Of a DNA stretch of 63,916 nt, positions 101-3,733 are shown one piece after another; position 1 is the stretch's first letter; every line of letters begins with the position of its first letter. The translations under genes and the position numbers were made by a program. The notes below the pieces were generated by a model that saw nothing but the letters and a program-made list of their open reading frames with translations, was not told where the DNA came from and made no database searches. The DNA lies in NCBI RefSeq assembly GCF_014698235.1, contig NZ_JACJSP010000025.1, positions 1 through 63,916 of the forward strand, written 5' to 3'. This DNA is from Limnothrix sp. FACHB-406 (GTDB lineage Bacteria > Cyanobacteriota > Cyanobacteriia > CACIAM-69d).

Positions 101-144
101 AATATGAAGTTTTGTGTTTAGATTCAACACTTCTGGCACGAGCC

Positions 145-2658
145 ATGAGCGATCGACCCGAAATCCAGCAGGGCATCATTGCTAACGATCAAGCCCAGAT
201 CGAGATCGGCAAGGTTGACCAGACGATGGGCGATCGCATCGAGCAGAACCACAGTGGTTCGGGCGATAACGTTGCGCGTGATAAGCACGTCCATGTCTAC
301 CAGTCAGCCCCACCGCCGAAACCGACTGGGGATGGGCCGCCGACGAATTTGCAGGATCGGGGGGTGGCGCGCGATCGCTTCTTTGGACGTGACGATGTGT
401 TGGCAGAGTTGCACCAGTTGCTCCAAACGGGTGATCACCGGGTGGCAATCGCCAGTGTGGATGGCATGGGCGGCGTGGGCAAGAGTGAGCTGGCGGTGCA
501 ATATGCGCGGCAACATTTGCACGAAACCTATCGCGGCGGGGTGGTGTGGCTGGCGGGGGAACGGGCGGGGGTTGAGCTGTTGAACTTTGCCCGATCGCGC
601 TTTTTCCCGACGGTTGATCTCGCGGAGTTCGGCGATTTGCCGGAGCAGTTAGACCATTGCTTGGCCCATTGGCCGGCCCAGGAAGTGCCGCCGGAATCGG
701 TGCTGTTGATTTTTGATGATGTGACGGACTATCGCACCCAAGTTGAGGCAATTTTGCCAAGCGATTCGCGATTTCGGGTGCTGATCACGACGCGGGCGAA
801 GTTTCAGGGGGTTGAGCGGCTGGAGTTGCAGGTGCTGACCCCAGAGGCGGCGCTCCAGTTGCTCGAAAGCATTGTGGGAAGGGAGCGGATCGCGGCGGAA
901 CCCAAGACGGCGGCGGCGCTGTGCGAATGGCTGGGCTATTTGCCGTTGGGGATTGAGTTGGTGGGCTACTACCTGAAGCGCAAGGCGGATCTGTCGCTGG
1001 CCACCATGCAAGAACGGCTGGCGGCGAAACGGTTGCAGGCCCCGGCGATCGCCCCCAAAGATCGAGATTTTCCCGAGGGAATGACGGCGCGGCGCGGGGT
1101 GGCGGCGGCCTTTGAGTTGAGCTGGCAAGCGTTGGACTCGGAGGCGCAACGGCTGGCGGTGTTGTTGGGTTGTTTTGGGCCGGCTCCGGTGTTGTGGGAG
1201 TGGGTGCAGGGTTGTTTGCCTAACGACGATGAGGAAGAACTCGAAGAGGCGCGAGATCAGTTGGTGAAGCTGAGTTTGGTGAAAGCCGAGGATGGGCAAT
1301 CTGCTTTGCATCCGCTGATTCGGGAGTTCTTTGCAGCCAAACGGGCGGACTGGCCCGAGGGCGGGGCGCTGCAACAGGCATTTTTGGGGCAAATGGTGAG
1401 CGTGGCGCAAACAGTTCCCTATCCGGTGACGCTGGCTGACTTGGCGCGTACCCGCCCCGCCTGGCAACACTTGGAAACGGCAGCGGCGGCCAGTGGCGAG
1501 ATTAATGATGAAGATTGCATTTGGGCCTTCACCGCACTGGCACGGCTGGCTGAGGGGCAAGGTCTCTGGGACGAAGCCGAACAGCACTACAGCGACTGCT
1601 TGAGCACCACCGAACGCCGCTTCGGCCCCGACCATCCTACCACCGCCACCAGCCTCAACGACTTGGCAGGACTCTACTATTCCCAGGGACGATACGAGGC
1701 AGCGGAACCCCTCTTTCGGCGATCGCTGGAAATCCGTGAGCAAGTGCTGGGAGTCGACCATCCCGACACCGCCCAAAGCCTCAATAGCTTGGCAAACCTC
1801 TACCAATCCCAGGGACGGTACGAGGCAGCGGAACCCCTCTACCGGCGATCGCTGGAAATCCGTGAGCAAGTGCTGGGAGTCGACCATCCCGACACCGCCA
1901 TCAGCCTCAATAGCTTGGCACACCTCTACAAATCCCAGGGACAGTACAAGGCAGCGGAACTCCTATACCGGGGATCGCTGGAAATCCATAAGCAAGTACT
2001 GGGAACTGACCATCCCGACACCGCCACCATCCTCAACAACTTGGCAGGACTCTACCAATCCCAAGGACGGTACGAGGCGGCGGAACACCTCTACCGGCTA
2101 TCACTGGAAATCCGTGAGCAAGTGCTGGGAGCCGACCATCTCGACACCGCCACCAGCCTCAACAACTTGGCAAACCTCTGCTTATACCAGGGATGGTACG
2201 AGGAAGCGGAACCCCTCTTGCGGCGATCACTGGAAATCCGGGAGCGAGTGCTGGGAGCCGACCATCCCTCCACCGCCACCATCCTCAACAACTTGGCAGG
2301 ACTCTACGAATCCCAGGGACGGTACGAGGCAGCGGAACCTCTCTACCGGCTATCACTGGAAATCAAAGAGCGAGTGCTGGGAGCCGACCATCCCGACACC
2401 GCCATCAGCCTCAACAACTTGGCACACCTCTACCAATCCCAGGGACGGTACGAGGCAGCGGAACCCCTCTACCGGCGTTGCTTGGAGATTTTTCTAGAGA
2501 AACTCGGTCAAGACCATCCCAACACCCAAACCGTTCAAGAAAATTTCCGCATCTTCGTGCAAACCGTCATCGAAGCTGATCGCGCCGCCGAACTCTCCGA
2601 CCACCCCCTCACCCAATCCATCCTGCAACAACTCACCACCCCACCCAAAACCCCGTAG
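145..2658 (+). CDS. STAND-type NB-ARC ATPase with C-terminal TPR array
   Basis: This is an 837-residue signal-transduction ATPase of the NB-ARC/TPR type, a class used by bacteria for regulation and for sensing phage or stress. The N-terminal 60 residues contain GDNVARDKHVHVY, resembling the short adaptor-like leaders of cyanobacterial STAND proteins; there is no catalytic effector domain. FFGRDD (about 79-84) opens the NTPase. GMGGVGKS (about 107-114) is Walker A, VLLIFDDV (about 187) is Walker B and VLITTRA (about 212) is the sensor motif. A winged-helix-like stretch follows. From about residue 465 there are eight kinesin-light-chain-like TPR units of 42 residues with core RYEAAEPLYRRSLEIREQ. 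The units are nearly identical at DNA level, so recent unit gain or loss is likely. The open frame extends to a TTG at 112, but the ATG at 145 is preferred. The stop codon lies inside a REP-like repeat. Family is clear; the signal sensed is unknown. Confidence 0.85.
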   Translation: MSDRPEIQQGIIANDQAQIEIGKVDQTMGDRIEQNHSGSGDNVARDKHVHVYQSAPPPKPTGDGPPTNLQDRGVARDRFFGRDDVLAELHQLLQTGDHRVAIASVDGMGGVGKSELAVQYARQHLHETYRGGVVWLAGERAGVELLNFARSRFFPTVDLAEFGDLPEQLDHCLAHWPAQEVPPESVLLIFDDVTDYRTQVEAILPSDSRFRVLITTRAKFQGVERLELQVLTPEAALQLLESIVGRERIAAEPKTAAALCEWLGYLPLGIELVGYYLKRKADLSLATMQERLAAKRLQAPAIAPKDRDFPEGMTARRGVAAAFELSWQALDSEAQRLAVLLGCFGPAPVLWEWVQGCLPNDDEEELEEARDQLVKLSLVKAEDGQSALHPLIREFFAAKRADWPEGGALQQAFLGQMVSVAQTVPYPVTLADLARTRPAWQHLETAAAASGEINDEDCIWAFTALARLAEGQGLWDEAEQHYSDCLSTTERRFGPDHPTTATSLNDLAGLYYSQGRYEAAEPLFRRSLEIREQVLGVDHPDTAQSLNSLANLYQSQGRYEAAEPLYRRSLEIREQVLGVDHPDTAISLNSLAHLYKSQGQYKAAELLYRGSLEIHKQVLGTDHPDTATILNNLAGLYQSQGRYEAAEHLYRLSLEIREQVLGADHLDTATSLNNLANLCLYQGWYEEAEPLLRRSLEIRERVLGADHPSTATILNNLAGLYESQGRYEAAEPLYRLSLEIKERVLGADHPDTAISLNNLAHLYQSQGRYEAAEPLYRRCLEIFLEKLGQDHPNTQTVQENFRIFVQTVIEADRAAELSDHPLTQSILQQLTTPPKTP

Positions 2659-2744
2659 GGGCGGGGTCTCCCCGCCCAGCCCCCACGACCATCCACCGCC
2701 CAGCCCCCACGACCATCCACCGCCCAGCCCCCACGACCATCCAA
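2655..2744 (+). repeat. GTAG-headed REP-like hairpin plus three 24-bp direct repeats
   Basis: GTAG (2655-2658) is followed by a perfect 8-bp stem GGGCGGGG/CCCCGCCC (2659-2666 and 2670-2677) with loop TCT. Three copies of a 24-bp unit (2673, 2697, 2721), core CCCAGCCCCCACGACCATCC, follow at once; only the last base of the third differs. A tetranucleotide GTAG 5' of a small hairpin is the known signature of REP elements moved by RAYT transposases, and a RAYT gene starts 49 bases downstream. The GTAG also supplies the TAG stop of the preceding gene. Confidence 0.8.
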
Positions 2745-2792: not shown

Positions 2793-3350
2793 ATGGGATA
2801 TAACCCCGAAATTCACCACAGGCGATCGATCCGTTTACGGAACTATGATTACGCCACACCGGGGATGTATTTCTTGACCCTTTGTACCCAACATCGCGAA
2901 CCCTGGTTGGGCAAAATTATTGATGGCAAATTTGACCCCACAGAAGATGGAGAAATTGCGATCGCGGCTTGGCAATCCTTACCCCAACGATTTCCAAATA
3001 TTCGATTGGATGGATTTGTGGCGATGCCTAATCATGTTCACGGCATCCTGGAAATTGTGAATGAATCGCCAGGGGCTGGGCGGGAAATGGTCGTGGGGGC
3101 TGGGCGGGGAGACCCCGCCCCTACGATTGGGGTGGGGAATGTGGTGGCGTATTTTAAATATCAGACGACGAAAACGATTAATCAAAAATCGGGTCAGGCT
3201 GGCAGACGAATTTGGCAGCGAAATTATTGGGAAAGAGTGGTGCGTCACGATCGGGAATTAACCAATTTTCGCAATTACATTGTCACCAATCCTCAACGCT
3301 GGGACTGCGATCGCCTCAATCCGCGCACCCAATGCCGCCACAATCAATAA
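2793..3350 (+). CDS. REP-associated tyrosine transposase (RAYT, TnpA_REP)
   Basis: A 185-residue HUH single-strand transposase of the Y1/IS200-like superfamily. RAYTs are single-copy enzymes that recognise and nick REP hairpins. The HUH motif is MPNHVHGI (His81, His83). The catalytic Tyr is most likely Tyr120 in YFKYQ, with Gln124 four residues on as in IS200 TnpA. The C-terminal block YWERVVRHDRELTNF is typical of the family. The frame is intact and starts at an ATG at 2793. Residues about 93-111, between the HUH strand and the Tyr helix, are encoded by an inverted copy of the REP element found upstream of the gene. No terminal repeats bound the gene itself, consistent with a domesticated RAYT. 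Confidence 0.9.
   Translation: MGYNPEIHHRRSIRLRNYDYATPGMYFLTLCTQHREPWLGKIIDGKFDPTEDGEIAIAAWQSLPQRFPNIRLDGFVAMPNHVHGILEIVNESPGAGREMVVGAGRGDPAPTIGVGNVVAYFKYQTTKTINQKSGQAGRRIWQRNYWERVVRHDRELTNFRNYIVTNPQRWDCDRLNPRTQCRHNQ
3087..3124 (-). repeat. REP-like element inside the RAYT gene (inverted copy)
   Basis: GGGCGGGG (3102-3109), AGA, CCCCGCCC (3113-3120) and CTAC (3121-3124) are the exact reverse complement of the GTAG hairpin at 2655-2677. The preceding ATGGTCGTGGGGGCTGGGC is the reverse complement of the adjacent 24-bp unit. A shorter related GGGGCTGGGCGGGAA lies at 3072-3086. The insertion keeps the reading frame. Confidence 0.8.
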
Positions 3351-3733
3351 TTTTTGCCCTCAGTAATGTCAGATTCTTGATCGTGAATCCAGACACCCCG
3401 GCGATTGTTTTATAGACACCTCAGCGTACTTAAACATTCTCGAATCTGTAGGGGCGCATCGCCATACGCCCTCCGATACGCGAGATCTCCGCAAACCAAT
3501 TCGTATTAAGCGATCGACCCGGTTGGAGGGCGTACAGCGGTACGCCCCGACCCGACCCCGCCCCATTGCCGCCGACAACCAACCCGCGATCCCGAGGGGC
3601 GATCGCGCCGCCGACCTCTCCGATCGCCCCAATCACCCCGCCGCTCCAAATTAAGCCAGGGTTAATCAACCGTTTGCGAGCTACGATCGCCCTAAGGACA
3701 GATCCACCCCCAGCGATCGAGCGAGGAAAAGCC
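3351..3733. other. Spacer with a pair of REP-like hairpins
   Basis: No gene is supported here. GTAG at 3448-3451 is followed by stem GGGCG/CGCCC (3452-3456 and 3467-3471). About 70 bases on, GGAG at 3525-3528 precedes stem GGCGTA/TACGCC (3529-3534 and 3541-3546). The two face the same way and resemble a BIME-like pair. The remainder is upstream sequence for the haemagglutinin/CHAT gene, including GAGGAAAA at 3723-3730 just before its start. Confidence 0.6.

Follow-up and report, generated by a model that had tools for sequence, protein, structure and literature searches.

The window, meaning the whole stretch of 63,916 nt that was analysed, carries a RAYT (TnpAREP) gene that follows the gene of an NB-ARC/TPR protein. 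REP-derived sequence is found both upstream of the RAYT gene and inside it, and the features are collected in Table 1. A second and different REP-like inverted pair (GTAGGGGCGCATCGCCATACGCCC, GGGCGTACAGCGGTACGCCCC) lies 3' of the RAYT gene at window positions 3448-3551.

Table 1 Features of the RAYT locus. Positions are those of the window; the protein motifs are numbered by residue.
Feature	Position	Strand	Remarks
NB-ARC/TPR protein gene 5' of RAYT	112-2658	+	Pfam TPR_12 and NB-ARC
Upstream REP hairpin	2655-2677	+	GTAG gives the TAG stop (2656-2658) of the preceding gene; likewise in G001 and G004
Three 24-nt tandem units joined to upstream REP	2672-2743	+
RAYT / TnpAREP gene, 185 aa	2793-3350	+	NF047646, Pfam, AlphaFold and 4er8 matches
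HUH motif H81-V-H83	3033-3041	+
In-gene REP-derived block, encodes residues 94-111 (GAGREMVVGAGRGDPAPT)	3072-3125	-	Inverted relative to 2654-2707, with 94% identity over 54 nt; shared with L026 and L027, junctions included
Copy, inside the RAYT gene, of the 21-nt core of the tandem unit (24 nt)	3087-3107	-	Exact match to three upstream units
REP hairpin proper (GTAGGGGCGGGGTCTCCCCGCCC), GTAG foot on minus strand	3102-3124	-	Exact copy; ssDNA fold
WQR, residues 141-143
Catalytic Y162	3276-3278	+

The RAYT ORF matches the NCBIfam model NF047646 (REP_Tyr_transpos) in two stretches with 61.4 bits and an E-value of 8e-17, which misses the curated cut-off of 80 bits, and the match of the protein to Pfam Y1_Tnp is weak. 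The top PDB match of its AlphaFold model is 4er8, a TnpAREP with REP hairpin, and a profile match also links the protein to this structure. Although the protein is not filed under the NF047646 equivalog model, its predicted fold and its motifs are those of a TnpAREP, and the catalytic residues are present. We compared the protein to the traits of subclass 2.4 of these enzymes (PMC6006769), which corresponds to group 4 of Bertels. The HuH motif NH[IFV]H is present as N80-H81-V82-H83 and the WQ motif as W141-Q142. The Y motif reads YIVTNP as against YIxNNP in the subclass, so that Y, I, N and P are kept and T replaces one N; YIxNNP itself is seen in other rows of the same alignment. The variable insertion between beta3 and alphaC is represented by a low-confidence loop at residues 91-110, with lengths that range widely among homologues. 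Of the long canonical or double-foot GTAG REPs that flank such genes, the upstream REP is an example, having GGG/CCC at the stem base (3 GC pairs). An in-frame REP within the tnpAREP gene, which is also a trait of the subclass, is present in the window RAYT. A further trait given for the subclass is an 8-aa insertion where alphaB ends.

The in-gene block and its upstream counterpart are identical at 51 of their 54 positions, and the exact stretch within this inverted repeat covers 39 nt (2654-2692 and 3087-3125). ORF 2793-3350 stays open across the block, and the preliminary description of a REP element in frame inside the RAYT gene is thereby borne out. The same description had an exact copy encoding residues of about 93-111; the exact part encodes residues 99-111 only, and the 54-nt block as a whole residues 94-111. 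Within the window the 23-nt hairpin is found twice and no more, against 0 expected from 100 shuffles; exact copies of the 21-nt repeat core number four, where shuffles give 0.02. As ssDNA, the in-gene hairpin folds with -10.8 kcal/mol (z -4.3). What the RAYT transcript carries is the inverse REP strand, with CUAC at the 3' end, and not the GTAG strand. The proposal that the mRNA contains its own target structure needs correcting on this point.

In the AlphaFold model, pLDDT is 56-59 over loop residues 91-110 and above 90 over most of the core; the N- and C-terminal ends of the model are likewise low. The extra loop that had been anticipated for the protein is found in the model behind the HUH strand (81-88) and ahead of helix alphaC (114-133). 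It was rightly placed after the HUH strand, but the next element is alphaC and not the catalytic Tyr162 helix (153-172), which comes later. By prediction the loop encoded by the REP is an exposed and disordered stretch, and the enzyme should still fold.

Two relatives share the insertion. The RAYT genes of genomes G001 (L027) and G004 (L026) have the identical 23-nt hairpin at the same place and with both junctions as in the window RAYT. The order of TPR gene, REP and RAYT is also kept in both, the stop codon of the TPR gene being the TAG of the upstream REP in these genomes as in the window genome (G000), and the genes downstream differ. The repeat units attached to the in-gene hairpin measure 24 nt in G000, 39 nt in G001 and 24 nt in G004, every one a multiple of three, whereas the intergenic array of G001 is built of 38-nt units. 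Among the three related genes dN/dS of the RAYT core is 0.18-0.20, so that by this measure the core evolves under purifying selection. Identity at the third positions of the core is 80-84% across the three genomes, as compared to 100% for the hairpin. We dropped hairpin conservation as a proof of selection, because the synonymous sites are too few for significance.

Pattern searches of the genomes gave 11 hairpin sites with at most two mismatches in G000, 25 in G001 and 100 in G004. Most exact copies in G004 have a TTT loop, whereas the in-gene copy has TCT as in G000 and G001, which fits inheritance rather than fresh copying. Twenty dispersed copies were checked in G004 and none was shown to lie within a recognised gene; one ORF covering the hairpin has a Pfam match, with the domain far downstream and no Met ahead of the hairpin, and most other ORFs over the copies appear spurious. 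In the window genome many of the dispersed copies are embedded in a conserved repeat that is longer, at about 160 nt (L004, L005, L006, L007, L008, L011, L020 and L023; positions about 1430-1590), and part of the hairpin is tandemly multiplied in the L005 and L006 copies of that repeat. The relatives that are found on plasmids are distant ones only.

We then turn to the linker in RAYT homologues at large, using two samples. The first comprises 93 homologues that span about 18 phyla and were ranked by how similar they are to the window protein, linker included; the second comprises 48 further cyanobacterial RAYT genes. A footed hairpin lies in the linker of 63 of the 93 homologues (68%), as compared to about 1% or less of windows in the conserved core, 24% and 18% in the adjoining 120 nt upstream and downstream, and a few percent or less past 240 nt; this excess may be inflated, because the linker of the window protein counted in the ranking. 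The corresponding values in the second sample are 20 of 48 genes (42%) for the linker, 33% and 29% for the flanks and 0 for the core. Occupancy of the linker is therefore at or above that of the adjacent intergenic 120 nt in both samples. In another RAYT subclass (DHLH...YIHYNP), the linker has a footed hairpin in none of 26 genes. Linker-over-flank enrichment is strong in the first sample and weak in the cyanobacterial one, and we do not claim it as functional proof.

Alignment of the homologues shows that some relatives, for instance L028, L089 and L151, have a short linker free of REPs. Distant RAYTs do not have the segment as an ordinary, conserved part of the protein; the site is variable, and many relatives have different REPs there, with frame and orientation differing as well. 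A somewhat laxer scan for REP-like linker elements, coded S for sense, A for antisense and D for double foot with a digit for the frame, gave S0 24, S1 8, A0 4, A1 16, A2 20, D0 15 and D1 10. Of the single-foot REPs, 32 are thus sense and 40 antisense, and no sense-strand element of the survey is in the frame that reads GTAG as a stop. Wherever a linker holds mixed orientations, the sense REP stands ahead of the antisense one with the feet outward (22 of 22). On a core-only tree, which is poorly resolved, the minimum numbers of changes are 17 between REP and none, 9 for the antisense frame, 5 for the sense frame and 5 for the double-foot frame, and the frame changes are best explained by separate insertions. 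The presence of two orientations and several reading frames within the family suggests repeated insertion. The in-gene hairpin is closer to the flanking REPs of its own locus than to those of other loci (p 4e-6, with rows that are phylogenetically non-independent), and identity between in-gene and own-flank REPs is at least 90% in 29 of 64 cases. In another group of cyanobacterial RAYTs (L030, L177, L158-L161, L235), this linker is occupied by a double-foot palindrome of a different kind, GTAGGGGCGAACGGCCGTTCGCCCCTAC with its variants. Long tandem-repeat linkers of up to about 120 aa are seen in L032, L253, L273 and L279, and are apparently multiplied REP-derived or similar units held in frame.

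Three other explanations of the in-gene block were considered. Both the genome and the repeat are GC-rich, and a low-complexity coding sequence might come to resemble a REP by chance; we regard this as practically excluded, given that shuffles expect no exact match of 39 nt and that relatives hold REPs of different sequence at the equivalent position. Autoregulation had also been put forward in the preliminary description; either the RAYT would bind the REP of the mRNA that encodes it, or the hairpin in that mRNA would damp translation. In its favour, the stretch of transcript surrounding the insert is more stably folded than its shuffles (z -2.3), the in-gene hairpin is strong, and the sense strand offers a weaker, GTGG-footed pairing. 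However, binding by characterised TnpAREPs is confined to the GTAG strand of ssDNA and excludes the iREP (PMC8266576), whereas the transcript is the inverse strand, and the linkers of the family hold single-foot REPs in either orientation. We therefore consider autoregulation very unlikely.

Selection at the DNA level would give the in-gene REP a role as resident cognate copy, one from which the REP population of the RAYT is seeded or maintained, or one that ties enzyme and target together when the gene moves. It would agree with linker occupancy that is high in many phyla and above the flanks in the broad sample, with the match of in-gene REPs to the flanking REPs of their own locus, with the REPIN-like, outward-facing order of mixed linkers, and with a hairpin free of differences among the three genomes, in contrast to the third positions of the core. 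Nevertheless, linker and flanks are roughly similar in the second cyanobacterial sample, the identity of the hairpin is non-significant with so few synonymous sites, about one third or more of the members have no linker REP, and the counts are inflated by shared descent. Such selection is an unlikely explanation in our view. It is likewise rather doubtful that RAYTs of this subclass have, in the in-gene REP, a selected cognate master copy in an outward-facing REPIN arrangement that keeps enzyme and target together on transfer. If selection does maintain the occupancy, the gene of a RAYT would include the target of the enzyme.

The reading that we prefer, with high confidence, is that the window RAYT is a TnpAREP of the subclass-2.4 kind whose cognate REP entered, with the frame preserved, the variable loop that joins the HUH strand to alphaC and is tolerated there. 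The insertion would have been a single event that preceded the split of the three genomes sharing it. Afterwards the core would have been kept by purifying selection, and the attached units would have changed, by expansion or turnover, in steps that are multiples of three. The REP probably stays because the linker is among the few tolerant spots in the gene and because REPs abound at the RAYT locus. We infer that the RAYT itself put the REP into its gene and that any activity would be unaffected. Self-insertion tolerated in a linker, which had been offered earlier as one possibility, is supported by the homologues without a REP, the low-confidence loop, purifying selection on the core and published precedent. 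Occupancy of the linker might be above what mere tolerance would give.

Rickettsia palindromic elements (RPE) are selfish palindromic DNA found in frame in protein genes, where the added peptide is tolerated. The window case shares with them the in-frame palindromic insertion and the tolerated peptide and differs in sequence and host, and we know of no link between RPE and RAYTs. Intragenic GTAG/CGTC REPs in other genes, as well as REPs supplying stop codons, have been described (PMC3733652). A GTAG-footed hairpin in an unbroken ORF and a REP whose TAG is the stop of the neighbouring gene are common to those cases and ours, but the hosts there are assorted genes (uvrA, recB), whereas here it is the gene of the REP's own presumed transposase. 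The E. coli TnpAREP/RayT (PDB 4er8) has the same HUH-Y1 fold and is the best structural match, with 20% aligned identity; it belongs to subclass 2.2, which is described without in-gene REPs (Quentin et al., PMC6006769).

The closest system is TnpAREP subclass 2.4, in which REPs that lie in frame inside the gene, on a peripheral extension placed between HuH and Y, are predominant (Quentin et al. 2018, PMC6006769). The window RAYT shares its NH[IFV]H and WQ motifs, the variable insertion between beta3 and alphaC, the cyanobacterial host, and GTAG-footed REPs both beside the gene and, in frame, within it between HuH and Y; its Y motif comes near YIxNNP. The differences are YIVTNP in place of YIxNNP and the in-gene 24-nt units (39 in G001) joined to the hairpin, and none of these is essential. 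An in-frame REP in a RAYT is already published as a hallmark of an enzyme subclass, and the window adds one more example: a clear case of a published oddity, with two relatives sharing the insertion. The figures that go beyond the main text of PMC6006769 are linker occupancy against core and flanks, the match to REPs of the own locus, the variation in orientation and frame, and the outward-facing mixed linkers.
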